Positions 6,588 through 44,193 of a stretch of DNA of 44,193 nucleotides are shown here, piece after piece; the stretch's first letter is position 1; each line of letters starts with the position of its first letter. Made by a program: the position numbers and the translations under genes. Below the pieces are notes generated by a model, which saw nothing but the letters and a program-made list of their open reading frames with translations, ran no database searches and was not told the origin of the DNA. The DNA is from an uncultured Verrucomicrobiota bacterium. GTDB taxonomy: Bacteria; Verrucomicrobiota; Kiritimatiellia; Kiritimatiellales; Pontiellaceae. Location: the NCBI GenBank assembly GCA_913065005.1, contig CAJYAJ010000010.1, forward strand, positions 1 to 44,193, in the 5' to 3' direction.

Positions 6588-6714
6588 ATAAAAAATCTCT
6601 CAGACATTCCAAAACCATCAAAGATCAAACTCAGAAAAAGAATCAACTAAACCTTGCACAACCTAACCTTCTTTCGCTAGAAAACACCCCCTTAACCAGA
6701 CAGAGGTTCAAATC

Positions 6715-6921
6715 ATGAAAAGCGAAATTCATCCAAATTATCAATTAGCAACCGTAAGTTGTGCCTGTGGAAACGTGTTCCAAACACGTTCAACCGTTAA
6801 AGAAATGCATGTCAACACCTGCTCTGCATGCCATCCCTTCTTCACCGGTCAGGCTAAATTCATCGATACAGAAGGTCGTGTAGACCGCTTCAAGAAGCGC
6901 TTTACAGAAGGCACCTATTAG
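6715..6921 (+). CDS. rpmE: 50S ribosomal protein bL31, zinc-binding form
   Basis: A 68-residue protein that sits at the central protuberance of the large subunit and bridges to the 30S head. It starts [10 protein letters not shown], typical of bL31. It keeps the four zinc cysteines Cys16 and Cys18 (SCACGN) and Cys36 and Cys39 ([12 protein letters not shown]), so it is the zinc-containing type rather than the zinc-free paralogue. An AGAGG ribosome binding site lies about 9 nt before the ATG. A strong intrinsic terminator follows 17 bp after the stop, so rpmE can be expressed as a single-gene unit even though prfA follows on the same strand. Confidence 0.97.
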
Positions 6922-6937
6922 CCCTCACTTCTGAGCT

Positions 6938-6969
6938 AGCCGAACACCCAACCCGTGTTCGGCTTTTTT
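6938..6969 (+). terminator. Intrinsic terminator after rpmE
   Basis: A perfect 10-bp stem, AGCCGAACAC (6938-6947) with GTGTTCGGCT (6955-6964), encloses a 7-nt loop and is followed by a run of T to 6969. It lies between rpmE and prfA, and the T-tract overlaps the TTG that would otherwise extend the prfA frame. This argues against that upstream start. Confidence 0.92.
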
Positions 6970-7000
6970 GTGCCCACACCTCAAACTCTACGACTCCTTT

Positions 7001-8098
7001 ATGAAAATCGACGCCACCTACCTCGATCAGATCAACGAGCAGATTCAGCAGCTCGAAACAACCATGTCACAACCCGAAGTTTCCTCCGATCCCAACAAAA
7101 TGAAACAATGCATGCGCGAATATGCACATCAAAAAAAAATTGCCACCATCGCCAGTCAACTCTGGCAACTCATGCAGACCATCGAAGAGAGCCAAACTCT
7201 ATTAAACGATTCCGCTTGCGAAGAAGAGCTCAAAGAACTAGCGCAACTTGAAAAAGAAGAAGCTGAAGAAAAATTACCCGAAGCTGAACGTGAGATGCGC
7301 CTCGCCCTCCTACCACCCGACCCCGTCGATAACCGCAATGTAATCATTGAAATCCGCGCCGGAACCGGCGGCGACGAAGCCGGTATATTTTGCGGAGATC
7401 TCTACCGCATGTATACGCGGTATTTTGACCTCAAAGGGTGGAAGCATGCCATGATGGATGCCAACCCCTCCGAATCCGGTGGATACAAAGAAGTCTCCTT
7501 CTCCGTCGAAGGCGACGAAGTTTATAAAACCCTTAAATACGAAGGTGGAACACACCGCGTTCAACGCGTCCCCCAAACCGAAACACAAGGACGCGTTCAT
7601 ACATCCGCCGCCACCGTCGCCGTACTAGCCGAAGCCGAAGAAGTCGACATTGAAGTAAAAACTGAAGATTTACGCATCGACACCTATCGCGCATCCGGCG
7701 CAGGCGGACAGCACGTCAACACCACCGACTCCGCCATCCGCATCACCCACGTTCCAACCGGCGTAGTCGTTCAATGCCAAGACGAACGCTCACAACATAA
7801 AAATAAAGCAGCAGCCATGAAAATGCTCCGCGCTAAACTCTTTGATGAACAGCAACGAAAAAAAGCCGAAGAAGAAGCCTCTCAACGTAAATCAATGGTG
7901 GGCTCCGGCGACCGTTCTGAAAAAATCCGCACCTATAACTTCCCGCAAAACCGACTCACCGATCACCGGATCAATTTAACAATCTATAAACTGGATCGTG
8001 TCATGGAAGGCGACCTCGAAGAAACGCTACACGCCCTAAATCAATTCGATCTCGAAGAACGCCTTGAAGAGCAAATGAAACAAACGGCAAGCGACTAG
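7001..8098 (+). CDS. prfA: Peptide chain release factor 1 (RF1)
   Basis: RF1 reads UAA and UAG stop codons and triggers peptide release. I place the start at ATG 7001 (365 residues, the usual RF1 length). The frame extends to a TTG at 6968, but that lies in the T-tract of the rpmE terminator. The central domain has the tripeptide anticodon region as PQT (191-193, [14 protein letters not shown]), the P-x-T form of RF1 rather than the SPF form of RF2. Domain 3 carries the universal GGQ (235-237, in [13 protein letters not shown]), whose glutamine is normally methylated by PrmC. No prmC is adjacent in this window. No strong Shine-Dalgarno sequence is visible before the start. Confidence 0.95.
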
Positions 8099-8135: not shown

Positions 8136-9749
8136 ATGAAAACAGAAAATCAAGTATATGACTATCTCGTCATTGGAAGCGGATTAGCCGGACTCTCCGC
8201 CGCCATAGAACTTAGCCAGCACGGCCAAGTGCTCGTCGCCACAAAGGTAGCAACCATCGAATCAAACAGTTTTTATGCACAAGGAGGGATTGCCTGTGTA
8301 ATGGATCCTGACGACTCGCCCGATGATCACATCAAAGACACCCTCAACTCCGGATGCGGTCTCTCCAAAGAAGAGATCACCCAAGAAATCATATCCCACG
8401 GGCAAGACCGAATTAAAGCTCTCGAAAAATTAGGGTTAAAATTCGACCTCCGAAAAGGCAAAGAGACCGAATATGATCTCGGAAAAGAAGGCGGACATTC
8501 ACACCGACGCATTCTTCACTGCGGAGATATCACCGGACAAGCCGTCATGCATACCCTGCAAGCATCAATACAAAAAAACCCTAACATCACACTCCTAGAA
8601 AACGTCATGGCGATTGATCTCATCACCACCAGCTGGCTTAAAATGGAAGGTCCAAACCACTGTATCGGAGCCTATTTTCTCGATCGAACTGCCAACAAAA
8701 TCATCTCCGTTCAAGCAGGTGCCACCCTCCTCGCCTGCGGGGGTGTCGGCAAAGTCTATCCCTACACCTCCAATCCCGACGTAGCCACCGGCGACGGCAT
8801 CGCCATGGCATGGCGCGCCGGACTCCCCATCCGCAACATGGAATTTATTCAATTCCACCCCACCTGCCTGTACCATCCCGATGCTAAATCATTCCTCATT
8901 TCAGAAGCCGTTCGAGGCGAAGGCGCCAAACTAATGGACCTGCGTGGACATGCATTCATGGAAACCTATGACCCCCGAGGATCACTCGCCACCCGCGATA
9001 TCACCGCCCGTGCCATTGATTCAGTCATGAAGATAAACGGAGATCCATATGTCTATCTCGACATCACCCATCGATCCGAATCCTTTCTCCGAGAACGCTT
9101 CCCGAATCTATACACTGCCTGCCTACGGTACGGCATCAACATGGCAACCGATCCCATACCCGTCGTACCCGCCGCCCACTATTCATGCGGAGGAATCGCC
9201 GCCGACGTAGACGGAAAAACCAATCTATCCGGACTCTTTGCCGCCGGTGAAACCGCCAACACAGGTCTCCATGGAGCCAATCGACTCGCCAGCAACTCCT
9301 TGCTTGAAGCGACCGTCTGCGGTCATCAAGCGGCCCATGCCATGCGGAAAAGCCATCGCAAAGAAAATGTTGAAATCAACATCCCCAGCTGGAAAAAAGG
9401 CGTAGCCGTCTCCTCCGATGAAGCCGTTGTCGTAGAACACAACTGGAATGAAGTACGAACTTGCATGTGGGATTATGTCGGCATTGTACGAACCGAACGC
9501 CGACTCAACCGAGCACGAGCACGCATTCAAAACTTACGAAAAGAAATCAAACAGTATTATGGCGACTACCTCGTCACATCCGATCTACTCGAACTACGAA
9601 ACTTAGCAGACGTAGCTGAACTCATCATTCGCAGCGCACTCACTCGCAAAGAGAGCCGTGGATTGCATCACATGGTTGATTTTCCAGAAAACAACGAAGA
9701 TAAAAGAGATACAGTTATTCAAGATGCCCCCGGCGGCCCCCTCACCTGA
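8136..9749 (+). CDS. nadB: L-aspartate oxidase
   Basis: This FAD enzyme oxidises L-aspartate to iminoaspartate, the first step of de novo NAD synthesis, using oxygen or fumarate as acceptor. The 537-residue protein opens with the dinucleotide-binding motif VIGSGLAGLSAA (Gly14, Gly16, Gly19). It has the family block FYAQGGIACVMDPDDSPDDH, the central GEGAKLMDLRG region and the FAD-contacting GLHGANRLASNSLLEA segment. The C-terminal helical domain contains RTERRLNRARARI. The related fumarate reductase/succinate dehydrogenase flavoproteins are less likely because of the length and the LASNSLLE motif. No nadA or nadC lies nearby. It follows prfA by 37 bp and converges on the zinc-ribbon gene with a 7-bp gap. 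Confidence 0.95.
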   Translation: MKTENQVYDYLVIGSGLAGLSAAIELSQHGQVLVATKVATIESNSFYAQGGIACVMDPDDSPDDHIKDTLNSGCGLSKEEITQEIISHGQDRIKALEKLGLKFDLRKGKETEYDLGKEGGHSHRRILHCGDITGQAVMHTLQASIQKNPNITLLENVMAIDLITTSWLKMEGPNHCIGAYFLDRTANKIISVQAGATLLACGGVGKVYPYTSNPDVATGDGIAMAWRAGLPIRNMEFIQFHPTCLYHPDAKSFLISEAVRGEGAKLMDLRGHAFMETYDPRGSLATRDITARAIDSVMKINGDPYVYLDITHRSESFLRERFPNLYTACLRYGINMATDPIPVVPAAHYSCGGIAADVDGKTNLSGLFAAGETANTGLHGANRLASNSLLEATVCGHQAAHAMRKSHRKENVEINIPSWKKGVAVSSDEAVVVEHNWNEVRTCMWDYVGIVRTERRLNRARARIQNLRKEIKQYYGDYLVTSDLLELRNLADVAELIIRSALTRKESRGLHHMVDFPENNEDKRDTVIQDAPGGPLT

Positions 9750-9756
9750 GGTGTAT

Positions 9757-10002
9757 TTAAAACTGCGACTGATTATTCACAATCAACACATCATTCAATT
9801 TTCCACAGCGCGGGCATTGATTCATAGGACGCCGATTCGAAACCGAATACACATGCTCACAACCTGAACAAAAATGAACATGCTCACGCTCCTTTAACGG
9901 TCGATACGAAGACCGAAATCGCTCATATAACGCCAACACACCAATCCCCAATAGAGGAAAGGCAAGAAGCAGCATAATCAGCAAAGATAACGAAAGATTC
10001 AT
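9757..10002 (-). CDS. Small membrane-anchored zinc-ribbon protein
   Basis: An 81-residue protein with one N-terminal membrane helix (about residues 4-25, LSLLIMLLLAFPLLGIGVLA). A small cytoplasmic or periplasmic domain follows, with two CxxC knuckles: CSGC (near 45-48) and CPRC (near 63-66). This is a classic zinc ribbon. The family is not recognised. The start overlaps the stop of the TonB-like gene as ATGA, placing it as the last gene of the second ExbB/ExbD operon. It could be an assembly or regulatory accessory of that system, but this rests on position only. Confidence 0.75.
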   Translation of the reverse strand: MNLSLSLLIMLLLAFPLLGIGVLALYERFRSSYRPLKEREHVHFCSGCEHVYSVSNRRPMNQCPRCGKLNDVLIVNNQSQF

Positions 10003-10691
10003 GGCATCTCCTTTGCAGATCGACTTCGCACTTCAACCCAACCCGACTCCCGCGAACCCGGTTCAAACGGCATGGCATATAAAGCACGAACCACCGCTTG
10101 ATTCCAAACTCCATTTTCAATCGGCGATTCAACAAAAAGATGTTTCACCCGCCCGTGCTCAGAAACGTCAACTTGCGCACGAACCAAAAAAGATCCCTCC
10201 ACCTCAACCGGCATCTCAAACGAAGAGGCTACCCAACGCCGCCGTAGATTATCACTCACCACCACCGATGAATCTCCATGGGGTTCCCACCTCAATGCAT
10301 AGGCTGGTTCCTCCACAACAGGAATTCCCCGCTCATCAAAATCACTCAATACAACCAACGGCTTTCTCTGATCGACCGCATAACCAGTATCCAAAAAATA
10401 TTCCCGCTGAACCGTCTTTGCAAACCGTAATTCTGTACGCATGGTAGACCCATCGATTGCAGCGCTATAACCCACCGATGAAGGAAACGCAAAAAGCAAC
10501 GGGGATTGGACTTCACGAACATCATAATCCAATCTTGGACCACGACCCGAATGAATCCAATACGTATGCAACCCCCTCTCCGCCGAACGCACTGGTTCCA
10601 ATGTGAGCGTCACCGGTAACAAGCTTAAAAGAGCCAGAACCAAGAGAGCTATCCAAACAAAATGGGGCACATCTTTCACACTGAGATTCAT
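9999..10691 (-). CDS. TonB-like energy-transducing protein
   Basis: A 230-residue protein with one N-terminal membrane anchor (about residues 11-30, VWIALLVLALLSLLPVTLTL) and a periplasmic remainder. The last 65 residues follow the TonB C-terminal domain pattern: a beta strand (VRAQVDVSEHGRVKHLFVESP), a helix (NQAVVRALYAMPFEPG) and a closing strand. In place of the usual proline-rich linker is a longer, more structured middle region, so the match to TonB is distant. The context is strong: ExbD lies immediately upstream with an ATGA overlap, and ExbB lies before that. It would carry the force from ExbB/ExbD to an outer-membrane or periplasmic partner (inference). Confidence 0.7.
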   Translation of the reverse strand: MNLSVKDVPHFVWIALLVLALLSLLPVTLTLEPVRSAERGLHTYWIHSGRGPRLDYDVREVQSPLLFAFPSSVGYSAAIDGSTMRTELRFAKTVQREYFLDTGYAVDQRKPLVVLSDFDERGIPVVEEPAYALRWEPHGDSSVVVSDNLRRRWVASSFEMPVEVEGSFLVRAQVDVSEHGRVKHLFVESPIENGVWNQAVVRALYAMPFEPGSRESGWVEVRSRSAKEMP

Positions 10692-11149
10692 TGATGAGTA
10701 TCCTCACCTCTCAACCCCGTCGCCAACGAAATCGACGCTACCCCCGCTGCTTGAGCCGCACTCCACACATCCACTAACCGACCATGGCTCACTTGCCGAT
10801 CGGCTTCAATAATAAGAACCAGCTCTGGCTCCTTAGCAACCCGAGCCACCAATTGCTCTTTCAGTCTATCCAAATCAATTTGCTCATCATCAAAATAGAC
10901 CCGCTCATCACGCGCAATCGACACCACATCACCACCCAACGCAACGCCCCCATTAAAAACCGCTGCCGGTAATTCTATTTGAATCCCCGGTTTTAAAATT
11001 ACCGGCGAAACCACCAAAAAAAACGCGATTAAAACACACGCAACATCCAATAGAATCGTGCACCCAATCGACCCCCCCCGATAACGCAACCGCGGACGAA
11101 ATTTTCGAAACTGCACCCCTTGTCGGTTCGGCTGTTCCAAATCAGTCAT
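10688..11149 (-). CDS. exbD: ExbD/TolR-type biopolymer transport protein (second envelope operon)
   Basis: I choose ATG 11149 (153 residues). It has a good Shine-Dalgarno sequence (GGGGAGAGG just upstream) and overlaps the exbB stop by 8 bp (ATGACTGA), whereas the frame extends nine codons further. The N-terminus is basic and unusually long. The membrane segment TILLDVACVLIAFFLVV (about 31-47) keeps the conserved aspartate as Asp35, but the usual A-P-L/M-I-D context is altered. The periplasmic domain has the expected IQIELPAA start and a C-terminal ASISLAT strand. Only one ExbD is present here, against two in the first cluster. Confidence 0.85.
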   Translation of the reverse strand: MTDLEQPNRQGVQFRKFRPRLRYRGGSIGCTILLDVACVLIAFFLVVSPVILKPGIQIELPAAVFNGGVALGGDVVSIARDERVYFDDEQIDLDRLKEQLVARVAKEPELVLIIEADRQVSHGRLVDVWSAAQAAGVASISLATGLRGEDTHQ

Positions 11150-11774
11150 GCACCTCTCCCCGCTGCTCCCACTCATCTGCTAAAAATCGAGTAACTTCAT
11201 TAACAGCATACTCCATATTGCTCGTGATACGCTCCACACGACCCAATAAAAAATGGTAGCCCACCAACGCCGGCAACGTGAAACTAATCGCCAATATACT
11301 ACTCAAAAGTGCCTTCCAGATCCCCCCAGAAACATCACCGATATGCGTTAAAGGTGCCATCGCCTCCATCCCAACAAACAACTCCAACAAGCCCACCAAC
11401 GTGCCCAACAAACCTAAGAGCGGCAACAACTGCGCCAAAATATACAACCCGCTCAGATTTTTCTCCAACCGTGGAATTTCTTCCAACCCCGATTTATATA
11501 ACATCGTGCTCAACTGCTCAGGCGCCTCATCCGCATGCAACAAAGCCGTTCGAACCAAATGCGCCACCGGTCCCGGTGTCTCATTACAAATCGTAACCGC
11601 CTCTGCACGATTCCCCCGATTCATTAAGGTAAAGATCCCACTCAAAAAATCTTCCTGCTTAATCTGAGCCCGATGTAAATGAAACCACCGATCCAAAAAC
11701 AAGCCGAGAGCCACCGCCCCACAAACCCAGATCGGCCCCATCATCCATCCACCATTTTGCATTAAACCAAACAT
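11142..11774 (-). CDS. exbB: MotA/TolQ/ExbB proton channel protein (second envelope operon)
   Basis: About 210 residues; ATG 11774 is preferred over a GTG one codon upstream because GGAG sits 8 nt before it. Helix 1 covers about residues 10-27. The core (about 108-180) contains LAQLLPLLGLLGTLVGLLELF and the second polar-lined helix IWKALLSSILAISFTLPALVGY. The family's TTATGL-type motif is replaced by SSILAISFTLP, so the proton-path residues are less canonical than in the first cluster. It follows the giant TPR gene by a few bases and overlaps exbD. Together with exbD and the TonB-like protein it should form an energised inner-membrane complex. Confidence 0.88.
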   Translation of the reverse strand: MFGLMQNGGWMMGPIWVCGAVALGLFLDRWFHLHRAQIKQEDFLSGIFTLMNRGNRAEAVTICNETPGPVAHLVRTALLHADEAPEQLSTMLYKSGLEEIPRLEKNLSGLYILAQLLPLLGLLGTLVGLLELFVGMEAMAPLTHIGDVSGGIWKALLSSILAISFTLPALVGYHFLLGRVERITSNMEYAVNEVTRFLADEWEQRGEVHD

Positions 11775-11778
11775 CACA

Positions 11779-14268
11779 CTACTCCAATTCCTGTCCTACC
11801 GATTGTAAACGATCCCGTATGGCATCCGCCCGTTGTTGTGCCTCTTTCGAAGCTGGAACAGCCGCCTCAACCATTCGATCATATACCGCAATCGCACCCC
11901 TCGGATTTTCCAAATCAGCCTGCAAAGCCGCCGCCGCAAATCCCGCCCGAGTAAACCACACCAAATTTTTCGAACTTCGCACCAATCCCTCACTTAAAAA
12001 AGAATAAACCACCTGCATATACGCCTCAAACGCCTCATCCGGTCGATCCATCTTTTGCGCACAACGCCCCATCTTATAAAGCGACTGCAACCGCAACTCT
12101 CGATCCAAATTGACCCGTTCCAACAAAGCTCGATACCCCTCAAACGCAACTTGATACCGCTCCGGCTGATCTGCACCCAACGCAAACTGACAATCGGCCA
12201 CCCGACCCTGGGCCGCAAAAGCCAACGAATGCTGCGGAAAATTCTTCAACACTTCTTCAAACGCCAAAATCGCACGCGCATGCTCCCCCAACTCCGTCAA
12301 TGCATCCCCCTGAGAAAATCGCGCTTGCGGCAACAACACACTCTCCGGATAAACCCGCACCAACTCACTAAACCGCTCAATTGAAACCGTAAACATACGG
12401 GTTCGCATCGCCGCTCGACCCGCTTGATATAAGGCCTTTTCAGACAACGCATGTGACTGATAATCCATATAAATCCGTAAAAACTGCCGCTCTGCCTCAG
12501 CAAAATCTCCACTATTAAACGCCTGCTCTGCCAACCAAAACAACACCTCCGGCGTCCATATAGAATCCGGATGTTCCACAATAAAACGCCGACACAACCC
12601 CAACGATTCATCCACATTACCCAACATATACACCGAAAACGCCCGCATATAAATCGCCTGTAAAACCGATTCACTCTGCTGATCACTCTGCGTTAATTCA
12701 AAAAAGATGCGTTCCGCCTCCCCATACTCACCCAACGCATACAACAACAAACCTCGCTGCAATCGGCTCAGCTTCACCACCTCAGCATCCACCGCATTAC
12801 GCTCAAGCTGACTATACGTCGCTAAAGCCTTTTCCCACTGCTGCTCCGCAATCCAAACATCCGCAATCCGCAACATCGATTCCACCGCCAATGCATCCAC
12901 CGGATACAGCTCAACCACCCGCTCAAATTCAAACAAAGCCTCTTCCCGAAACCCAATCCGAGCCGACGTTAAACCCAACTGATACATCCCCCGCGCCTCA
13001 TTCGCATGCGCCGGATAGCTTTTCAAAAACTGTTGATATAAAACCCTCGCCTGCTCAAACCGCTCCGCCTGATAATACGCATCCGCCGCCTTAAACAGAG
13101 CCCGAGACGCCAACTCAACCTCTTTATTCCCACGAAACGCCTGTTCAAAAAGATACGCCGCCTCCTCCGGCCGACCCAACTCCAACAACGCCTGTCCCCG
13201 CCCATAATACGCCCACGAACGCTGCGACGACTCCTCACTCACATCTAGCACCGACTGAAACACCTCCTCCGCCCGCTTAAAATTCAACTGCCCCAAAAAC
13301 ACCCGTGCCTTCTGCATCTGCAACCGCAATGCCCAAGCTCGACTCTCCACCTCAACCTGAGCCGCCTCAATCCAACGCAACGCCAACTCCCACTGCTCCA
13401 TCTTCTGGCAGAGTTGCGCCAGCTCCGTTTTACGCTCCACACGCCCAACCGACGTATCAATCCAATCAATGGTCTGCTCCAATAATCGAATCGACGCCTG
13501 CAGATCGCCCCGTTCCATTTCCCTCTCAGCCAAAAAATGCGCCGCCTGCAATCGATACACACGCCCCGCCTCAACATTTTTCATCAACGACTCAAAAATC
13601 GCACCCGCCTCATCCGCATCCGACTCCACAAGAAGCTCCGCCAATAATAACCGAACCCGATAAATCAACTCACCCCCCGCAATCGCCTCCACCTTCCGCA
13701 ACTGCTCCAACGCCTCATCAACTCGATTTTGCTTTCGCAGCACCCAAGCAAGATCATACGCATTCTCAGCCATCGCTTCATCCGACTCAGCCATCGACTC
13801 AAACCGAAGAAAAACCCCTTCCGCTTCCTCCAACCGATCCAACTCGACCAACAAACGCCCCTTCAACCTCAACCGATCGACCGCCATCACTCCCACCGAC
13901 TGATCCCCCTCCAAACGCGCCAATCCCGCCTCGAAATCCCCCAAATTCATATAGGTCCGCGCCACCCAATAGCGCAAGCGCTCATCATCAGAAGCATCCG
14001 AAATTTCATCCAAGACCGCTTCGAAACGCCCTTGTCCCCAAAGCGCATGCGCCAATAAAGCCTGATCTACTAAATCCAGTTCACCGTCCACATCCCGCGC
14101 ATTCGACCGTATTTGCTGCTCTGCAAGTTCATAAAACCCATCCTCCAAAGCCGCAGTAATCTCCATCCGCACTGCATCTGAAAGCGACGCAAACGAAACC
14201 AAAGAAAGCCCAAGCGTCACCACCCAAACCAACCCCCGTCTCACCTTCATCAAACGCATATTGAACAT
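11779..14268 (-). CDS. Giant secreted TPR protein (about 830 aa), first gene of the second ExbB/ExbD operon
   Basis: An export signal precedes LSDAV (VRRGLVWVVTLGLSLVSFAS). Almost the whole length is tandem tetratricopeptide-like repeats, for example LGRPEEAAYLFEQAFRGNKE, FEQARVLYQQFLKSYPAHAN, FREEALFEFERVVELYPVDA and YGEAERIFFELTQSDQQ. Many units carry the A-x-x-x-F/Y and P-x-x-x-x-A pattern. The frame reaches GTG 14271, with ATG codons at 14268, 14259 and 14250; ATG 14250 would give the cleanest signal peptide. It parallels the 948-residue protein at 3.7-6.6 kb in position and architecture. It is probably a periplasmic scaffold or outer-membrane-associated partner of the ExbB/ExbD/TonB-like set (inference). 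Confidence 0.87.
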   Translation of the reverse strand: MFNMRLMKVRRGLVWVVTLGLSLVSFASLSDAVRMEITAALEDGFYELAEQQIRSNARDVDGELDLVDQALLAHALWGQGRFEAVLDEISDASDDERLRYWVARTYMNLGDFEAGLARLEGDQSVGVMAVDRLRLKGRLLVELDRLEEAEGVFLRFESMAESDEAMAENAYDLAWVLRKQNRVDEALEQLRKVEAIAGGELIYRVRLLLAELLVESDADEAGAIFESLMKNVEAGRVYRLQAAHFLAEREMERGDLQASIRLLEQTIDWIDTSVGRVERKTELAQLCQKMEQWELALRWIEAAQVEVESRAWALRLQMQKARVFLGQLNFKRAEEVFQSVLDVSEESSQRSWAYYGRGQALLELGRPEEAAYLFEQAFRGNKEVELASRALFKAADAYYQAERFEQARVLYQQFLKSYPAHANEARGMYQLGLTSARIGFREEALFEFERVVELYPVDALAVESMLRIADVWIAEQQWEKALATYSQLERNAVDAEVVKLSRLQRGLLLYALGEYGEAERIFFELTQSDQQSESVLQAIYMRAFSVYMLGNVDESLGLCRRFIVEHPDSIWTPEVLFWLAEQAFNSGDFAEAERQFLRIYMDYQSHALSEKALYQAGRAAMRTRMFTVSIERFSELVRVYPESVLLPQARFSQGDALTELGEHARAILAFEEVLKNFPQHSLAFAAQGRVADCQFALGADQPERYQVAFEGYRALLERVNLDRELRLQSLYKMGRCAQKMDRPDEAFEAYMQVVYSFLSEGLVRSSKNLVWFTRAGFAAAALQADLENPRGAIAVYDRMVEAAVPASKEAQQRADAIRDRLQSVGQELE

Positions 14269-34605: not shown

Positions 34606-36405
34606 GTGAAACCAACAGATACAGAAAATCCAGAGTACTTTCACCGCGTGGTTGATTGCCAACATGCGTGCCCTGCTCACACCCCTGTTCCCGAGTATAT
34701 TCGCCTCATTGCGGCGGGTCGATATGAAGATGCCTACATGATCAACTGGGAGTCCAATGTCTTCCCCGGCATTCTTGGACGTACTTGCGACCGCCCGTGC
34801 GAGCCCGCCTGCCGACGAGGGCGCATTGAGGACAAACCGGTTGCCATCTGTCGACTCAAACGTGTAGCGGCAGACATGAAAGAAAATGTACAAGCACGCA
34901 TGCCCAAAATTCCGAAGAAAAAGAATGGTTTGAAAGTGGCGTTGATCGGTGCAGGGCCTGCTTCGTTAACGGTGGCGCGCGACCTGATGCCGCTCGGCTA
35001 TGAAATTGATCTCTACGATGCCACTCCCAAACCAGGTGGCTATATGCGACAGCAAATTCCTTCGTTCCGATTGCCCGAAAGGGTGATCGATGAAGAGTGT
35101 GGCTATATCCTCGATATGGGCGTTACATCCTATTTTAATCACCGTGTCGAGAGCATGAAAGCGCTTCTTGATCAGGCGTATGATGCGGTCTTCGTTGGTA
35201 CCGGTGCTCCAAGTGGTCGCAGACTGCCTCTGCCCAACTATGATGCAGTTGAGGGAACTGGCGTACAGCTAGGCGTGGAGTGGCTGGCGAATGTCGCATT
35301 CGATCACATCGATAGTGCACCTGAAGATGTATTGGTCATCGGTGGCGGTAATACGGCGATGGATTGCTGCCGGACGGCGCTACGGCTGGGGGCAAAAAAT
35401 GTGAAGGTGATGCTGCGGACGCCGATTAGCGCTATGCTCGCTTCTCCATGGGAAATCGAAGATACCCAAGCAGAGGGTATTCCGATTTTAGAAAATTACA
35501 ATCCGGCTGAATATGTGGTCGAAGATGGCAAATTGACCGCTATGAAATTTGAAATCATTGAGTATGACGTGGCAGAAGATGGCACCGAAGTATTCATCCC
35601 AACCGGTAAAATCGAAACCATTGATGCCAGTTTGGTGCTCTTGGCGATTGGGCAAAACAACGCCTTCCCGTGGATCGAAAAAGATCTCGGTATCGAGTTC
35701 AACCAACGCGGCTTAGCGGAGGTCAATCCCGATACGTTCCAATCTACTCTTCCCCAAGTTTTCTTTGGAGGGGATGCGGCACTTGGACCAAAGAATATTA
35801 TTACAGCGGTGGCGCAGGGGCATCAGGCAGCGATCTCGATTGATCAATTCCTGCAAAACAAATCGGTGGAAGATCGTCCGGCACCACATACCAACTTAAT
35901 GAGCCAAAAAATGGGTATCCATGACTGGAGCTACTCCAGTGCGGTCTCCGATGAGGAACGTCAAAAAGTGCCCCATGCGCCGTTAGCGGAAGCCCTCAAA
36001 AGCCGCAAACTGGAAGTGGAACTCGGCTTTGATGATAAACTCGCCTTTGAAGAAGCTCAACGCTGCCTCAACTGCGATGTCCAAACCGTCTTTACCGCCG
36101 ATAAATGTATCGAGTGCGATGCCTGCGTGGATATTTGCCCTGTCGACTGCTTGACCATGACCCCGAACGATGAGGAAGCGGTACTGCGCCAAAAACTAAC
36201 CGTGCCTGCGGAAAACCTGGATGAACCTCTTTTTGTTTCTGAAGCGTTACAAACCGAACGGGTGATGGTGAAAGATGAAGATGTTTGCCTTCACTGTGGG
36301 CTCTGCGCGGAGCGATGTCCCACCTCCGCTTGGGATATGCAGAAATATAACTATAAGACGGCTAAAGCGGGGAGTTCCCCCAGAGAGAGTGTTGTTAACG
36401 CCTAG
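34606..36405 (+). CDS. GltD-like NAD(P)H flavoprotein with C-terminal 2x[4Fe-4S] ferredoxin domain (Kor-associated)
   Basis: 599 residues, GTG start with AAGGAG just upstream. The N-terminal Fe-S domain has Cys18, Cys22, Cys61, Cys65 and Cys69 (CQHACPAH, CDRPCEPACRRG), as in the glutamate synthase small subunit. An FAD loop IGAGPASLTVA (about 114) and an NAD(P) loop VIGGGNTAMDCC (about 244) follow. Residues 487-490 form an extra CxxC, and the C-terminus carries two ferredoxin clusters: CIECDACVDICPVDC (501-515) and CLHCGLCAERCP (561-572). No large GltB subunit is present. The next two genes encode a 2-oxoacid:ferredoxin oxidoreductase. This protein most likely moves electrons between that enzyme and NAD(P) (inference; compare flavoprotein subunits of phenylglyoxylate and KorABC-type oxidoreductases). 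Confidence 0.87.
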   Translation: MKPTDTENPEYFHRVVDCQHACPAHTPVPEYIRLIAAGRYEDAYMINWESNVFPGILGRTCDRPCEPACRRGRIEDKPVAICRLKRVAADMKENVQARMPKIPKKKNGLKVALIGAGPASLTVARDLMPLGYEIDLYDATPKPGGYMRQQIPSFRLPERVIDEECGYILDMGVTSYFNHRVESMKALLDQAYDAVFVGTGAPSGRRLPLPNYDAVEGTGVQLGVEWLANVAFDHIDSAPEDVLVIGGGNTAMDCCRTALRLGAKNVKVMLRTPISAMLASPWEIEDTQAEGIPILENYNPAEYVVEDGKLTAMKFEIIEYDVAEDGTEVFIPTGKIETIDASLVLLAIGQNNAFPWIEKDLGIEFNQRGLAEVNPDTFQSTLPQVFFGGDAALGPKNIITAVAQGHQAAISIDQFLQNKSVEDRPAPHTNLMSQKMGIHDWSYSSAVSDEERQKVPHAPLAEALKSRKLEVELGFDDKLAFEEAQRCLNCDVQTVFTADKCIECDACVDICPVDCLTMTPNDEEAVLRQKLTVPAENLDEPLFVSEALQTERVMVKDEDVCLHCGLCAERCPTSAWDMQKYNYKTAKAGSSPRESVVNA

Positions 36406-36428: not shown

Positions 36429-38276
36429 ATGAAACGTGATATAATCATCAATCAATTCGTAATTAAATTTGCGAACATTAATGGAACCGGTTCAGCCAGT
36501 GCCAACAACCTTTTTAGCCGAGGCATTTTTCGGATGGGCGTGCCGATAAGCCCAAAGAATATCTTCCCCTCAAATATTCAAGGTTTACCCACGTGGTATG
36601 AAGTACGCGTTTCTGAATCCGGTTTTTTGGGTCGACGCGGGGGCATCGATATCATGGTCTCGATGAATCCGCAAAGCATGCAGCGGGATATCGCCGAGGT
36701 CGATAAAGGCGGATATTTTATCTATGACTCAACCAAACCGCTCGATCCTAAACTATTCCGAGATGATATTGATATTATTGGACTTCCGCTCACCGCTACC
36801 TGCCGCGAACTGTATGAAGATCCACGCCAACGGCAACTCTTCCGAAACGTAATGTATGTCGGCTCCCTCTGCGCCCTGCTCGATTTAGACATTGAGGTTT
36901 TTAAACAACTCATCAGTGATCAATTTAGAGGTAAAGAAAAACTCGTTACACCCAATGTGAAAGCCATTGAAACGGGCTATCGGCTGGCGCAAGAAAATGC
37001 AACTTGCCCGATGGCATTCCGCGTGGAAAAACGGAATAACGTCGGGAATAAAATTTTAATTGATGGCAATACGGCGGCGGGATTAGGGGCCGTCTATGGA
37101 GGCGCAACCGTGGCAGCTTGGTATCCAATTACGCCTTCTACCTCGGTCATCGATGCCTATTCTAAATATTGTCGGACGTTCCGAGTCGATCCCGAAACCG
37201 GCGAGAAAAACTATGCCATTGTTCAGGCAGAAGATGAACTGGCAGCGATTGGAATGGTCATAGGGTCCTATTGGACAGGCGCTCGTGCCTTCACCGCGAC
37301 CAGCGGACCCGGTCTCTCGCTGATGAATGAATTTTTGGGTCTTGCCTACTTTGCGGAAATTCCAACGGTGCTAGTGGAAGTGCAACGGGCTGGCCCTTCG
37401 ACCGGCATGCCAACCCGCACGCAACAATCAGATGTCCTTTTGGCTGCCTACGCTTCGCATGGTGATACCAAACACATCTGTCTCTACCCATCTACCCCGA
37501 AAGAATGCTTTGAATACACTGCGATGGCATTTGATCTGGCCGAACGCTTTCAGACACCAGTGATTTTACTTTCCGACCTTGATCTGGGCATGAATGAAAA
37601 TATGTCGGAGCCCCTAGAGTGGGACGATGAACGCACCTACGACCGCGGAAAAATTCTCACGCATGATGACTTAGAAAACATGAAAGAGCGTTACGGCCGC
37701 TATCTCGATGTCGATAACGATGGCATTCCCTACCGCACCCTGCCAGGTACGCACCCAACGAAAGGCTCGTTCTTTACGCGTGGAACATCCAAAGATGAAT
37801 ATGCGATCTATACCGAAATCGGTGAAAAATATATTGAGAATATGGATCGGCTCCAACGCAAGTGGAGAACCGCTTCAAAATATGTACCTAAGCCCATTAT
37901 TCGAAAAACCGACAAACCGTGCACAATAGGCGTTGTTCACTATGGCACCTCGGAAGCATCTACCCTGGAAGCCTTGCACCATTTGAACACGCTACATGGC
38001 ATCTCACTCGATAGCATGGGTATTCAGAGTTTTCCCTTCTCAGATGAAGTCGGCCAATTCATTGCCGAGCATGAATATGTTTTCGTTGTCGAACAAAATC
38101 GCGATGCACAAATGCGCACCCTGCTGATTAATGAGTATGATTTTGATCCCGATCGGTTGGTACCCTTACTTCATTATGATGGAAGCCCCATCACCGCGCG
38201 TTTCATTCGCCGTGAAATCCGTGACTGGATTTTGCAAACCACAACTTCGCCACGACGGGGAAGCCGTTTTTTCTAG
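36429..38276 (+). CDS. korA: 2-oxoacid:ferredoxin oxidoreductase, fused gamma-alpha subunit
   Basis: 615 residues. Residues 1 to about 195 form the gamma domain (NQFVIKFANINGTGSASANN, GRRGGIDIMVSMNP). The alpha (pyrimidine-binding) domain begins about 208 with LIDGNTAAGLGAVYGGATVA and includes AWYPITPSTSVIDAY and TATSGPGLSLMNEFLGLAYF. RAGPSTGMPTRTQQSDVLLA is a family landmark. With the beta subunit it oxidatively decarboxylates a 2-oxoacid with CoA, or carboxylates in reverse. The gamma-alpha fusion is common for 2-oxoglutarate-type enzymes, but the substrate cannot be fixed by eye. It lies 23 bp after the flavoprotein gene and 9 bp before korB. There is no obvious ribosome binding site at ATG 36429. 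Confidence 0.92.
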   Translation: MKRDIIINQFVIKFANINGTGSASANNLFSRGIFRMGVPISPKNIFPSNIQGLPTWYEVRVSESGFLGRRGGIDIMVSMNPQSMQRDIAEVDKGGYFIYDSTKPLDPKLFRDDIDIIGLPLTATCRELYEDPRQRQLFRNVMYVGSLCALLDLDIEVFKQLISDQFRGKEKLVTPNVKAIETGYRLAQENATCPMAFRVEKRNNVGNKILIDGNTAAGLGAVYGGATVAAWYPITPSTSVIDAYSKYCRTFRVDPETGEKNYAIVQAEDELAAIGMVIGSYWTGARAFTATSGPGLSLMNEFLGLAYFAEIPTVLVEVQRAGPSTGMPTRTQQSDVLLAAYASHGDTKHICLYPSTPKECFEYTAMAFDLAERFQTPVILLSDLDLGMNENMSEPLEWDDERTYDRGKILTHDDLENMKERYGRYLDVDNDGIPYRTLPGTHPTKGSFFTRGTSKDEYAIYTEIGEKYIENMDRLQRKWRTASKYVPKPIIRKTDKPCTIGVVHYGTSEASTLEALHHLNTLHGISLDSMGIQSFPFSDEVGQFIAEHEYVFVVEQNRDAQMRTLLINEYDFDPDRLVPLLHYDGSPITARFIRREIRDWILQTTTSPRRGSRFF

Positions 38277-38285
38277 GAGAGCTAA

Positions 38286-39338
38286 ATGAGTTATACGGTC
38301 CCCAGTTTTCGCCATCCCAACCTGCCGCGCAATGAGCTTGGCTACACCTCCAAAGATTATGAGGGGGCGGTCTCAACCCTCTGTGCGGGATGTGGGCATG
38401 ATTCGATCAGCGCCGCCATCATCGATGCCTGTTTTCAAATGTCGATTCAACCGCACCGGGTTGCCAAACTTTCTGGTATTGGCTGTTCTTCAAAAACGCC
38501 TACCTACTTTTTGGGCAACTCTCATGGTTTCAACTCGGTTCATGGGCGAATGCCTTCGGTTGCAACCGGTGCAAACATGGCAAATCGTAATCTACTCTAC
38601 ATAGGCGTTTCAGGCGATGGAGACACGGCTTCAATCGGCATGGGACAGTTTGTCCACGCTGTTCGCCGCAATATCAACATGGTTTATATCTGCGAAAATA
38701 ACGGCGTCTATGGTCTCACCAAAGGGCAAGATTCCGCTACCACCGATCTAGGTTCTAAAAGTAAAAAGGGCGATCCCAGCCCCTACGAACCTATCGACCT
38801 CTGCGCGCTTTCGTTGCAATTAGGGGCTACCTTCGTGGCGAATAGTTTTTCGGGTGATAAAGATCAGTTAGTGCCAATCATTCAAGCCGCGATTGCCCAC
38901 AAAGGCTTCGCCTTTATCAACGTGATTAGTCCTTGTGTGACGTTTAACAACGTCTCCAGTTCCACCAAAGCCTATGACTATATGCGCCAGCATATGGCAT
39001 CAACGAATACCGTCGATTATGTGCCAACGGCAGATGAAATTACAACCGACTATCAAGAAGGCACCACCGAGCGCGTAACGATGCACGATGGCTCCTACCT
39101 CAACCTTCATAAACTTGAAGCGCAACATGATATTCATAGTCGGCGCTCCGCATTAAAGCTAATGAAAGATTATGGAGCTGAGGATAAAGTGCTAACTGGC
39201 GTGCTCTTCATCGATGAAACCACACAAGAACTTCATGAAATTATGAAAACCACGAAAACCCCGCTTAGGAATCTCACCGAAAAAGAGCTCTGCCCAGGGG
39301 CGGATGCTCTTGAAAAACTGAATAATCAATTCCGTTAA
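38286..39338 (+). CDS. korB: 2-oxoacid:ferredoxin oxidoreductase, beta (TPP) subunit
   Basis: 350 residues carrying the thiamine diphosphate site. The motif GDGDTASIGMGQFVHAVRRN (about 110-129) followed by NINMVYICENNGVYGLTKGQ is the Mg-TPP fold. Cysteines Cys33, Cys36 (TLCAGCGHD) and Cys67 (GIGCSSK), with one in ISPCVTF, match the single [4Fe-4S] cluster of the family. It lacks an extra ferredoxin domain, consistent with the flavoprotein two genes upstream supplying clusters. AGGAG precedes the ATG. The C-terminus overlaps the convergent ovoB by 4 bp. It is the last gene of the three-gene unit. Confidence 0.94.
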   Translation: MSYTVPSFRHPNLPRNELGYTSKDYEGAVSTLCAGCGHDSISAAIIDACFQMSIQPHRVAKLSGIGCSSKTPTYFLGNSHGFNSVHGRMPSVATGANMANRNLLYIGVSGDGDTASIGMGQFVHAVRRNINMVYICENNGVYGLTKGQDSATTDLGSKSKKGDPSPYEPIDLCALSLQLGATFVANSFSGDKDQLVPIIQAAIAHKGFAFINVISPCVTFNNVSSSTKAYDYMRQHMASTNTVDYVPTADEITTDYQEGTTERVTMHDGSYLNLHKLEAQHDIHSRRSALKLMKDYGAEDKVLTGVLFIDETTQELHEIMKTTKTPLRNLTEKELCPGADALEKLNNQFR

Positions 39339-40510
39339 CCAAATAACGCACAGATCCGATCAACGGCCGGCAACAGTTGCGAACGAGAGTGGCCACAGTT
39401 GATACGAAACCATCCTTCTCCAGCAGGTCCAAAAAAAGTACCGCCCGATAACGCAACGCGCGCCTCTTTGATCAATCGATTGGAGACCGTGCTCCAATCC
39501 CCATGATCGCGAAAATCGCACCAAACTAAAAATGTGGACTCGGGACACATTGGCTTTAATCCATCGACCGCATCCAGTTTTTCATACACCTCTTGCGTAC
39601 TTGCTTTCAGATAGGCATTCAACTGTCGCTTATATTCCGCCCCGTCCGGACTGAAAAGACGGGTGATCGCCACTTTTCCAAGTAGGTTGATATTATCAGA
39701 GTGCGCGCGGCGATGGGCACGCCGTAGCCGAGTTCGCAAAGCAGCATTGGGTACAATCGAAAATGAGCTTTTTAGACCACTTGCATTGAAGGTCTTACCG
39801 ATCGAGTGCGCCATGACACAGTGATCTCGCAATTCAGGAATCGTGAGCACCGAGGTATGGCATGCTGGGGCATAGACAATATCGCTATGAATCTCATCAC
39901 TAAATAAAATGACCCCGTGTAATTTACAAAGGCGCCCCAACCGCAGCAACTCATCCGCTTGCCACACCCGCCCACTCGGATTCTGTGGATTGCATAAAAG
40001 AAGCATCGTGGTAAGCGAATTAGATAAGGCGGTATCAATGGCCTGCCAATCCATTTCATAGCGCCCTTTATCAATCAATAAAGGGCAGTCTGCAGGAACT
40101 CGCCCATGGAGTTTCACGGTCGAAAAAAACGGACCATATACCGGAGATAAAACCACCACCTGATCTTGCGGTGCTGTGAACGCTTCAATCGCCATCGAGA
40201 TGCTACTCACCACCGAAGGCGACAAAGAAATCATCTCTGGTGCCACCTCTACCCGATGCTGATCGCGCATCCACCAGATAATCGCATCGAATAACGTTGG
40301 ATCTTTTTCCGTATACCCAAACAGGGAGTGATCGACACGATCTCGAAGAGCTTCTACAAGAAACCCGGGGGAAGGCAGATCCATATCCGCCACCCAAAAA
40401 GGCTCCACATCATTCGTTCCATAATACTGCTTGCGGGCTTCATACTTTTCCGCCTGCGTACCGATGCGCGAAATGACCGTATCAAAATCGTATGTTATTT
40501 TTTCTTCCAT
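39335..40510 (-). CDS. ovoB: PLP-dependent C-S lyase, predicted ovothiol sulfoxide lyase OvoB
   Basis: 391 residues, fold-type I aminotransferase-like family of MalY/PatB cystathionine beta-lyases. It shows LCNPQNPSGRVW, the PLP-ring aspartate in FSDEIHSD (Asp205) and the Schiff-base lysine Lys239 in AHSIGKTFNASGLKSSF. On its own it would be called MalY/PatB. However, its start lies 16 bp inside the 3' end of an OvoA gene, giving translational coupling, and OvoA needs a PLP sulfoxide lyase to complete its pathway. It should cleave the histidine-cysteine sulfoxide adduct to 5-thiohistidine, pyruvate and ammonia (inference from family and context). GGAAGTG precedes the ATG. Confidence 0.82.
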   Translation of the reverse strand: MEEKITYDFDTVISRIGTQAEKYEARKQYYGTNDVEPFWVADMDLPSPGFLVEALRDRVDHSLFGYTEKDPTLFDAIIWWMRDQHRVEVAPEMISLSPSVVSSISMAIEAFTAPQDQVVVLSPVYGPFFSTVKLHGRVPADCPLLIDKGRYEMDWQAIDTALSNSLTTMLLLCNPQNPSGRVWQADELLRLGRLCKLHGVILFSDEIHSDIVYAPACHTSVLTIPELRDHCVMAHSIGKTFNASGLKSSFSIVPNAALRTRLRRAHRRAHSDNINLLGKVAITRLFSPDGAEYKRQLNAYLKASTQEVYEKLDAVDGLKPMCPESTFLVWCDFRDHGDWSTVSNRLIKEARVALSGGTFFGPAGEGWFRINCGHSRSQLLPAVDRICALFG

Positions 40511-42612
40511 ATCGTCACTTCCGAGAGCGAGTGTTGATGCTTATGCATCGTCTCACGGATGACGAAAGGTAGCTTAACCGGAGGCGCCGTTAAAGTGAAA
40601 TGCGCGTCCAGATGCGTATGCAATCCATCTAGCGTACTCACCGGTTCACCGTCTCGCTTAAAACCACCGAGCCAGTTCTCTTTTGGCGTAAACTCTTCCA
40701 TCCAAGTATAAGGGGAAGCAATAACCAAATGACCTCCGGCCTGAATGCGAGGCGCAATATCGTTCAAGAACCGAACGGGCTGACTCAATCGATCAATCAA
40801 GTTGGCTGCCAACACGAGATTATACCCCGTAAAACGAGCTTTCATATTGCAGGCATCTTGTTGCATGAAATTAATATGATCCATCGGTTGATCTAATCCC
40901 ATTGCGCTCAACGTTCGTTCTTGGAAGGTCGTTAAATCTCCCTGCTCTTTTCGCTCATAGCGAATGCGCCCAGCTCGCTGCATCTGCGCACCCATTTGAA
41001 TAAACCGTGCTGAAAAATCGAGTGCATCTACGCTCTTAAACTGCGTCGCTAATTCAAACGCCGAGCGCCCGACTGAACAACCCATATCCAACGCATGATC
41101 ACGTATTGATCCGCTTGTGGCTTCCATCGCTACCTGCGCAACCGCTTTCGCAAAATTCGGCACATCAAACACTTCATCTCCATAGTGGAATTCACAATAT
41201 TGAGAAACTAAATCATCGGTTTCGTAGATATCAAAATCCCGTTTTACTTCCGCATCGGATTCAATATAGCGGAATCCAGCGTGTTGATAGAAATGGCGGC
41301 GAAAGGCATATCGACTGCCCAACGTGATCTCATTTCCGGTTGAAATCCAGGAACCCCCTTTAATCAAATTATGCCGATTATCAAAGGTAGGTGTCGAAAA
41401 ATCATCATAGAGCGGATGAACCTGAAAGCCATCAAAGGCATGAATAGGCGTCTCATTCCACTGCCAGACGTTCCCTACCAGATCATAAAAGGCGCCATGT
41501 GCAAACCGATCGACGGCTACGGACGATGCCCCCTGTTCTAAATTCCAGTTCGCTTCAATCGATTGAGTATGATGTTCCCGGTCCAACCCGGCAGATTCTA
41601 ATAATCGTCGATATTCTGCTTCATCAGGCATCCGTACCGAAGTCCCACTCTGGGCGCTCTTCCAATTACAAAAAGCCTGTGCTTCATGATAACAGATTTC
41701 TACCGGCCAATTCATCGGCAACGCAATTTCATTGGTCATCAATCTTAAACGGTATTCTCCTGCTTCACCCCGCCAAAATTCGGGTTTATCCGCCTGATGA
41801 TATTCGCGCCACGAACGACCTTCATCGCTCCACCATCCATTTTGCTTATAACCACCCGCTTCCATGAAGCCGAGAAACTCTTGATTGGAAACTAAATATT
41901 TCGAGGCACGAAAGGAGGCAACATCATAAACCGTTTCACCAAACTCATTGTCCCACCCATAAATTTCATGTGTTTGACGACCCAATTCAACCGTTCCGCC
42001 CTCCACTGAAATCAACTCATTTTGAGGGGCCTCTCTGCCGTCGGCTTCATGCGGAGCGAAGGCATCAATCGATTTTACAAGCGATAGATCAAGCTGACGA
42101 ATCAATACCGAGCTAGTCTCCAGATGAATTCGTTCATGCTCAATCCCCATCAAAATTGTCCAAGCGGGACTTTCCCATGCAATCGGTATCGTGATTTCCA
42201 TCTCGTCGATAACCTGATTTACAGCCACTTTCACTTGATCTCGATATGCAAAAACTTCCGCCACCTGCGGCCACTCATAATGGGCATCATTGAGATCATC
42301 CCAACTCATCTCATCAACTCCAATCGCGAACAGCGACTCAAAACGAGGATTAATGCGTTCGCTTAGCAGCTTTCCAAGGACCAACTTATTCACAAAAAAC
42401 GTAGCGGTATGACCAACATAAAAGAGCAGCGGATGCCGCAATGGTTGCGGTCGCTCATAAAAAACTTCGTCTGATGCAAGCACATCAAACAGCAATTCAT
42501 ACTGTTCCCATGTGTAGTTAAAGTAGGTTTTAATCTCAGCCCGTTTGGACGCAACATCACCTTTGTTCAGAATCACGGTCTGATTCATTTCTTGAACCGA
42601 TAAATCATTCAT
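40495..42612 (-). CDS. ovoA: 5-histidylcysteine sulfoxide synthase / thiohistidine N-methyltransferase OvoA
   Basis: 705 residues in the full three-part OvoA layout. Residues about 25-180 form a DinB-like domain with iron ligands His68 (YVGHTAT), His159 and His163 (IEHERIHLETSSV). About 200-450 is a formylglycine-generating-enzyme (SUMF) domain, with GNVWQWNETPI, HPLYDDFSTPTF and NLIKGGSWISTG; Tyr402 is a candidate for the catalytic tyrosine. About 480-705 is a SAM methyltransferase with HALDMGCSVGRSAFELA (507-522). It joins cysteine to C5 of histidine with oxygen; the methyltransferase then methylates 5-thiohistidine to give ovothiol. EgtB is excluded by the fused methyltransferase. A GAGGGGG site precedes ATG 42612. 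Confidence 0.93.
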   Translation of the reverse strand: MNDLSVQEMNQTVILNKGDVASKRAEIKTYFNYTWEQYELLFDVLASDEVFYERPQPLRHPLLFYVGHTATFFVNKLVLGKLLSERINPRFESLFAIGVDEMSWDDLNDAHYEWPQVAEVFAYRDQVKVAVNQVIDEMEITIPIAWESPAWTILMGIEHERIHLETSSVLIRQLDLSLVKSIDAFAPHEADGREAPQNELISVEGGTVELGRQTHEIYGWDNEFGETVYDVASFRASKYLVSNQEFLGFMEAGGYKQNGWWSDEGRSWREYHQADKPEFWRGEAGEYRLRLMTNEIALPMNWPVEICYHEAQAFCNWKSAQSGTSVRMPDEAEYRRLLESAGLDREHHTQSIEANWNLEQGASSVAVDRFAHGAFYDLVGNVWQWNETPIHAFDGFQVHPLYDDFSTPTFDNRHNLIKGGSWISTGNEITLGSRYAFRRHFYQHAGFRYIESDAEVKRDFDIYETDDLVSQYCEFHYGDEVFDVPNFAKAVAQVAMEATSGSIRDHALDMGCSVGRSAFELATQFKSVDALDFSARFIQMGAQMQRAGRIRYERKEQGDLTTFQERTLSAMGLDQPMDHINFMQQDACNMKARFTGYNLVLAANLIDRLSQPVRFLNDIAPRIQAGGHLVIASPYTWMEEFTPKENWLGGFKRDGEPVSTLDGLHTHLDAHFTLTAPPVKLPFVIRETMHKHQHSLSEVTIWKKK

Positions 42613-42714: not shown

Positions 42715-43038
42715 TTAGATAGAAAATCCACCTGTTAGTTGAATAATCAATGTAATGATACAAGTGATACAAAGCAATAATGAATAAATTGGACGAGGTT
42801 CATTTTCCTTCCGGACTCGCTCCCATCTCGATAAAACCGATGCGACTGAAAGCAACAAGGTTATGCCCAACCAACTCAAAAAAATCATCTCATTTTCGGA
42901 TGCATGTTCTACCTTGCTGCCCGCTGGGCCCACCAACGGCAATAACATACAAAGTAGAAAGAAGGCTAAGCCCGCTAAGATACTCAAAGTAGCTCCAACA
43001 GATCGTCTATAAAACCAAGTATGTGCAGGTAATGCCAT
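42715..43038 (-). CDS. Small membrane protein with three helices, unknown
   Basis: 107 residues with three predicted membrane segments: about 14-36 (VGATLSILAGLAFFLLCMLL), about 51-67 (IFLSWLGITLLLSVASVL) and about 85-105 (SLLLCITCIITLIIQLTGGF). A short charged loop (RWERVRKENEPRP) lies before the last one. The family is not recognised. It lies 102 bp upstream of ovoA on the same strand and is divergent from the VWA-like gene. The frame is long for this gap and the hydrophobic pattern is coherent, so it is probably real. No strong ribosome binding site is seen. Confidence 0.6.
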   Translation of the reverse strand: MALPAHTWFYRRSVGATLSILAGLAFFLLCMLLPLVGPAGSKVEHASENEMIFLSWLGITLLLSVASVLSRWERVRKENEPRPIYSLLLCITCIITLIIQLTGGFSI

Positions 43039-43144: not shown

Positions 43145-44193
43145 ATGAGCGTACAGAAAAAGAAACGCCGAATCATTGGATCAAGTGCCGCCCTGTTAAG
43201 CATTGCTGTGCATGTACTCCTGCTATTTCTAGCTGGCGGCATTGTGGCTCTTCGCTACTTTGCCAAAGAACCCGCAACGTTCACGGTCGCTGAACAAAAA
43301 AAATTAGAACGACGGCAATTGGATGTTCCAGTCAAAGTGCAGCCGTTCATGGAACAAATGTCGAGACCCTCTTCAAAAACCACTAGCCGTATCACCGCAT
43401 CCACCCCGCAAATGGTCAATATTCCGCAGCAGGGAACCTTCGTTGAAATGGCTCCTATGCCCACCTTTAAAGGCAACTATACCAATTTTGTGCAGACCGA
43501 TCGAACCCTCATCATGAACGCCAAATATCGCGAAGTTGGTTTTGGCATCTCCAAAGTCGATTTCTTTGGTACGCGAGGCCGAGCCGAGAAAGTCCTACTT
43601 ATTATGGATGCGGCTCCCACGATGGTGAGCGAAAACCGAGGAGGCTTATTCGCCTATGAGGCTTTAGTAGAGGAAGTTCGCATTCTCATCAATGAACTAC
43701 GCTCCTCAACCCTCTTCAATCTCATTCTTCATGATCATCATCAGATGATTCCCTATCAAGAAGCATTGGTACCAGCCACTGCAACCCATAAAACTAATTT
43801 GCTCGAATGGGTGGCTTCTATTAATACCCAGACACACCAACTCGGACTGGCCGACGTTGACCCCACCCCCCAAAACACGCCAGGCGAATACGAAATTCCG
43901 ATGCAAACAAACGATATAACCGGCTGGTTAAAAGCAGCCCAATATGGAACCGCATTGCAACCAGAGGTGATCTTCTTCCTTTCGGGAGACTGGGGCTCCA
44001 TAACCGATCCAGATAGTGATCTCTCCTACTTTGCACGCTTTGATCAGCTAGAACAGTATCTGGATGAGCGCTTGAATGCCTTGCTCTCTGATGAAGATAT
44101 CGCAGACGAGTGGGAAGAAATCGCCCTCGAACTGGAAGCACTCGTTCCAGTAGCCCAAAAAATGATCGAACTCGAACATCAAGCCCGGGCCGA
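43145..44193 (+). CDS. Membrane-anchored VWA-like protein, N-terminal part only (runs off right edge)
   Basis: The frame is open from ATG 43145 to the last base (349 codons). A basic start (QKKKRRIIGSS) and one membrane helix (about 13-35, LLSIAVHVLLLFLAGGIVAL) point to inner-membrane anchoring with the rest in the periplasm. A linker of about 100 residues follows. A von Willebrand A-like fold then begins with VLLIMDAAPTMVSENRGGLF (about 156-175), later LFNLILHDHHQMIPY, and a third strand PEVIFFLSGDWGS. The usual metal-site DxSxS is DAAPT here, so metal binding is doubtful. The N-terminal plan resembles TonB-like proteins. A Glu-rich helical tail begins before the edge. The start has no clear ribosome binding site. 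Confidence 0.75.
   Translation, partial: MSVQKKKRRIIGSSAALLSIAVHVLLLFLAGGIVALRYFAKEPATFTVAEQKKLERRQLDVPVKVQPFMEQMSRPSSKTTSRITASTPQMVNIPQQGTFVEMAPMPTFKGNYTNFVQTDRTLIMNAKYREVGFGISKVDFFGTRGRAEKVLLIMDAAPTMVSENRGGLFAYEALVEEVRILINELRSSTLFNLILHDHHQMIPYQEALVPATATHKTNLLEWVASINTQTHQLGLADVDPTPQNTPGEYEIPMQTNDITGWLKAAQYGTALQPEVIFFLSGDWGSITDPDSDLSYFARFDQLEQYLDERLNALLSDEDIADEWEEIALELEALVPVAQKMIELEHQARA

Follow-up and report, generated by a model that had tools for sequence, protein, structure and literature searches.

In this study, we report a two-gene locus, ovoA followed by the gene of a PatB-family lyase, in an uncultured member of the Pontiellaceae (Kiritimatiellota) that has a small genome and marine anaerobes among its relatives; judged from its sequence, the locus is very probably a genuine and conventional operon for the synthesis of ovothiol A. 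Ovothiol is an antioxidant, and its enzyme and pathway are already well known; it is the host group that is new. No earlier report of an ovothiol operon in the Kiritimatiellota was found in a literature search that reached few subscription papers, and the literature found contained no ovothiol product or enzyme activity from this phylum.

Genomes and sequence searches

The window (the whole stretch of DNA analysed, 44,193 nucleotides) belongs to a 1.2-Mb assembly that is 79% complete, and any gene reported here as absent from this genome was sought by family searches within that incomplete assembly. Among the genomes searched, 24 fall into the same genus as the window's genome. Oxidases were searched as Pfam families only. 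The searches for 2-oxoacid oxidoreductases and dehydrogenases took in 26 genomes, G019, G021, G023 and G024 being left out. The features of the window, and the loci of relatives that carry the lyase gene without ovoA, are listed in Table 1.

Table 1. Features of the ovothiol locus and its surroundings in the window, and lyase loci without ovoA in relatives
Feature	Sequence	Position	Strand	Evidence or remarks
2-oxoacid:acceptor oxidoreductase alpha	window	36429-38276	+	TIGR03710, 562 bits (cut-off 483)
2-oxoacid:acceptor oxidoreductase beta	window	38286-39338	+	PorB_KorB, 213 bits (below cut-off of 262)
ovoB candidate, PLP-dependent PatB-family C-S lyase	window	39335-40510	-	391 aa; TIGR04350, PDB 6qp3
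ovoA/lyase overlap	window	40495-40510	-	16 bp; exact in 17/17 loci
ovoA	window	40495-42612	-	705 aa; ORF call, TIGR04344/TIGR04345, PDB 8khq, invariant residues
Small ORF	window	42715-43038	-	107 aa; 102 bp upstream of ovoA, same strand
Locus without ovoA	L086 (G015)	8633-13787		Lyase kept; 2-oxoglutarate dehydrogenase E2/E1 present
OvoB-clade PatB-family lyase without adjacent ovoA	L087 (G004)	6156-7406
OvoB-clade PatB-family lyase without adjacent ovoA	L088 (G013)	4023-5306

Identification of ovoA

The families found in the ovoA product predict an N-terminal 5-histidylcysteine sulfoxide synthase part fused to a C-terminal 5-thiohistidine N-methyltransferase part. The protein scored 654 bits against the OvoA model TIGR04344 (cut-off 400, passed by 254) and 320 bits against the OvoA C-terminal model TIGR04345 (OvoA_Cterm; cut-off 170, passed by 150). 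Its best solved relative was the OvoA of PDB 8khq (E=3.6e-259, 865 bits, residues 14-704 aligned), and the OvoA fold was taken as settled because of the sequence identity to this structure. The C-terminus also matched the stand-alone methyltransferase OvoM (PDB 9bxl), and the Pfam layout was DinB_2, FGE-sulfatase and methyltransferase, in this order.

Residues H68, H159 and H163 (putative iron ligands) and Y402 (at the position of the catalytic tyrosine) were H/H/H/Y in 37/37 OvoA homologues; an annotated OvoA of Rahnella carries the same residues, and the same motifs are present in 8khq. The active-site tyrosine of Erwinia tasmaniensis OvoA is Tyr417 (PMC10903977), and Y402 would be its equivalent as judged from the 37 homologues, the Rahnella OvoA and 8khq. 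An earlier note on this DNA, made without database searches, had proposed OvoA for this gene on the basis of an iron site at His68, His159 and His163, a SUMF-like domain and a C-terminal methyltransferase, and had raised the comparison with EgtB and the alignment of Tyr402; both were carried out, and the identity, the numbered residues, the domain layout and the tyrosine were all confirmed. The OvoA of 8khq, a 5-histidylcysteine sulfoxide synthase / 4-mercaptohistidine N1-methyltransferase, resembles that of the window in the iron histidines, the tyrosine and the C-terminal methyltransferase, and differs only in host lineage and sequence divergence.

The DinB/FGE architecture is common to EgtB-type enzymes, and EgtB-IV structures matched the protein at 332-348 bits, as might be expected if it were an EgtB-like ergothioneine enzyme or another SUMF-methyltransferase fusion (e.g. 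of EgtB-IV or ovoselenol type). We regard this as extremely improbable, since the best solved relative, matched end to end at 865 bits, is OvoA, and the protein lies far under the cut-offs of both the EgtB equivalog model (169 bits against 360) and the SenA (selenoneine synthase) model (159 bits against 420), while its C-terminus passes OvoA_Cterm and matches OvoM. Moreover, EgtD was missing from all 40 genomes covered by family searches (that of the window, 79% complete, and 39 related ones), and an ergothioneine pathway was rejected on this ground. The identification as OvoA was also less hidden than the earlier note had expected when it supposed that the pathway would probably escape automated annotation: the NCBIfam OvoA equivalog-domain models are passed by far, public records already name 'ovoA: 5-histidylcysteine sulfoxide synthase', and only the lyase would receive a generic name, 'PatB family C-S lyase'.

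The lyase gene and its overlap with ovoA

The lyase scored 378.6 bits against the PatB C-S lyase model TIGR04350 (cut-off 340) and matched the PatB of PDB 6qp3 (E=9e-86, 39% identical), its PLP lysine K239 lying in a GKTF motif aligned with SKTF of that protein. A MalY/PatB-type PLP lyase had been predicted as the partner of ovoA, and the PatB family is indeed the one expected for OvoB. OvoB, a PLP beta-lyase described for E. tasmaniensis, is likened to the lyase of the window by family (TIGR04350) and by the place of the lyase gene beside ovoA; homologues of the window's lyase also exist without ovoA in the same genus. The lyase gene lies directly 3' of ovoA at every ovoA locus examined in the genus, and a strong PatB-family lyase was present in 8/8 ovoA-bearing relatives, as against 3/31 without ovoA (Fisher 2.7e-6).

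Both open reading frames and the 16-bp overlap between them were found as described for a compact ovoA-ovoB operon. The ATG of the lyase gene takes its first base from the third position of an Ile/Leu/Val codon and its other two from the start of the codon for a conserved C-terminal Trp of OvoA, and a GGAAG-like stretch lies within ovoA, shortly 5' of this ATG. In the window, the lyase has no other in-frame start in the 25 codons that follow this ATG, nor upstream of it as far as the next in-frame stop. When the overlap was surveyed in relatives, as the earlier note had suggested, it was exactly 16 bp in all 17 distinct loci read, which come mostly from Pontiellaceae and Kiritimatiellota relatives, and this conservation exceeds chance. 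The lyases of the other 16 loci are 46-79% identical to that of the window, which makes the arrangement an old one in this group. It is a reasonable inference from the sequence that the fixed overlap couples translation of the lyase to that of ovoA; it may also simply have been inherited, without selection. The exact overlap offers a simple signature for locating the operon in this clade.

Relative to ovoA, the lyase is read in frame -1, and the overlap of the window contains an A-run. An OvoA-lyase fusion produced by frameshift or read-through was nevertheless rejected, since the A-run is not kept in relatives, which have GATCAGAAAATA and similar sequences. An OvoA-OvoB fusion has been described in hydrozoans (PMC9103826), where both steps are physically linked, as they are in the window, although here they are carried by two proteins in different frames. 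The loci of Geobacter sp. UBA2189 (L022), Proteobacteria YF4 (L020) and G187 of the same phylum (L054) have ovoA followed by a PatB-type lyase, as in the window, but without the 16-bp overlap and with lyases 34-43% identical to that of the window.

Proposed pathway

From the families of the two enzymes we infer that the iron-dependent N-terminal part of OvoA would convert cysteine, histidine and O2 to 5-histidylcysteine sulfoxide, that the lyase would cleave this to 5-thiohistidine, pyruvate and ammonia, and that the SAM-dependent C-terminal part of OvoA would form ovothiol A by methylating the ring. The pathway would most likely serve cells that meet low-level oxygen and respire with a high-affinity oxidase.

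Distribution of ovoA and association with oxygen reductases

The nearest homologue was that of MED670 (79%), followed at 67-69% by those of Pontiella sulfatireligans, the Pontiellaceae strains B12219 and B12227, and further members; all of these are Kiritimatiellota. This host, together with the origin of the loci sharing the overlap, agrees with the earlier placement of the DNA in a PVC bacterium. In the OvoA tree, the window pairs with MED670 inside a group with Pontiella, and two loci labelled Deltaproteobacteria stand at the base of the group that holds all three. A survey of the phylum found OvoA above the cut-off in 19/388 genomes of Kiritimatiellota. The ovoA contig of the nearest relative, G019, is a sequence match to MED670.

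Several further loci were noted. Locus L007, labelled "Chromatiales", fell within the Pontiellaceae in each of the two trees; transfer to Gammaproteobacteria was rejected, and its ovoA-lyase contig is more likely to have been mis-binned. The OvoA from the single-cell genome of an uncultured Coxiella (L018) forms a very long branch next to the Kiritimatiellota group, and its placement is unsure; L064 (G160, same phylum) has a tandem of two OvoA-like pieces that overlap in part, possibly a duplication or a broken frame. A phage or plasmid origin was rejected: there was no phage match, and plasmid OvoA matches were below 60% identity.

A haem-copper oxidase (COX1) was found in 8/8 relatives with full-length ovoA and in 8/31 without it (Fisher 2e-4, relatedness ignored); within the genus the counts were 8/8 and 8/16 (p=0.017, relatedness again ignored). 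Cytochrome bd was also present in seven of the eight ovoA-bearing relatives. In G019, a cbb3 operon followed by genes for a DsbD-like protein and a P-type ATPase lies upstream of ovoA, with about 7.4 kb between the end of its catalytic subunit and the start of ovoA. No oxidase was found with the Pfam families in the window's genome (79% complete), an absence that is uninformative because the contig stops within one of the genes that lie between ovoA and the cbb3 operon in G019. The Pontiella in culture have been classed as obligate anaerobes but encode bd and cbb3 oxidases, and their describers proposed a possible adaptation of these bacteria to low oxygen (PMC7356697).

The oxygen intolerance of the cultured relatives, and the lack of ovoA at the syntenic locus of G015 (see below), would fit an ovoA that is unused or decaying in an anaerobe without access to O2. 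This is very unlikely: the frame of 705 codons is intact with all active-site residues, the gene is full-length and stop-free in eight relatives, and among the relatives ovoA is associated with oxygen reductases. The same association, together with the cbb3 genes near ovoA in G019, weakens the contrast drawn in the earlier note between the oxygen requirement of OvoA and the oxygen-sensitive type of oxidoreductase encoded next door.

Gene neighbourhood and relatives with the lyase only

The oxidoreductase genes (36429-39338) converge with the lyase gene, with a 4-bp tail-to-tail overlap. Directly before them, at 34606-36405 (+), is a gene for a 599-aa flavoprotein with 4Fe-4S domains and NAD(P)-binding, PRK12771-like though below the cut-off, which is possibly the electron partner of the 2-oxoacid oxidoreductase. 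On the other side of the operon, the small ORF is syntenic in G019 and G015 and has no family match; a further ORF at 43145-44191 (+) also has no family match, and the gene order here is apparently kept in both relatives.

In the 1.2-Mb relative G015, the order is cbb3 genes, accessory genes, two reverse genes, the small ORF and the lyase gene. Despite this syntenic locus, no ovoA is present in G015, and the lyase gene starts 10 bp after the small ORF. On a long branch, the lyase of G015 clusters with its counterparts in the window and MED670 (support 99/96), which makes loss of ovoA the simpler reading. Genes for 2-oxoglutarate dehydrogenase E2 and E1 occupy the spot held by the ferredoxin-type oxidoreductase in the window and G019. 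G015 was the only one of the 26 genomes with an E1 over the cut-off, and had no TIGR03710 oxidoreductase over the cut-off. Two further relatives, G004 and G013, have lyases of the OvoB clade, and ovoA was not found anywhere in their genomes.

These lyases bear on the function of the window's enzyme. OvoB has been described as a PLP beta-lyase of broad specificity (PMC12631010). The PatB family is also broad in its specificity, and this breadth, together with the lyases of the same clade in G004, G013 and G015, would be in keeping with a general cystathionine or cysteine-S-conjugate beta-lyase that happens to lie beside ovoA, the OvoB step being performed by another enzyme. We consider this unlikely, given that the adjacency is invariable, the overlap identical in 17 loci and the lyase present in every ovoA-bearing genome among the relatives; the window's genome also encodes Cys/Met-metabolism PLP enzymes of its own (PF01053), which makes the need for a housekeeping lyase less pressing. 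The general role and the OvoB role are not mutually exclusive. Retention of the lyase in the three genomes without ovoA, one of them small, suggests a second C-S lyase role independent of ovoA, and it is doubtful that the enzyme we assign as OvoB is dedicated to ovothiol alone.

Ovothiol might keep the oxygen-sensitive ferredoxin-type 2-oxoacid oxidoreductase of this lineage working during respiration of trace oxygen, in line with which G015, the one small relative found with an oxygen-tolerant 2-oxoglutarate dehydrogenase at this spot, lacks both that oxidoreductase and ovoA and would have kept the lyase for another purpose. As the joint replacement was seen in a single case, we put this link forward as a hypothesis only, and a rather improbable one.

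Significance

The mild surprise of this locus lies in which organisms carry the pair of genes, and in relatives that keep the lyase where ovoA is missing. The culturable Pontiella, described as obligate anaerobes, join the predicted makers of ovothiol, a compound whose synthesis depends on O2 and whose role in bacteria is unsettled. Close relatives with and without ovoA, one of the latter sharing the gene order, can be compared to test what ovothiol does at the oxic-anoxic boundary.
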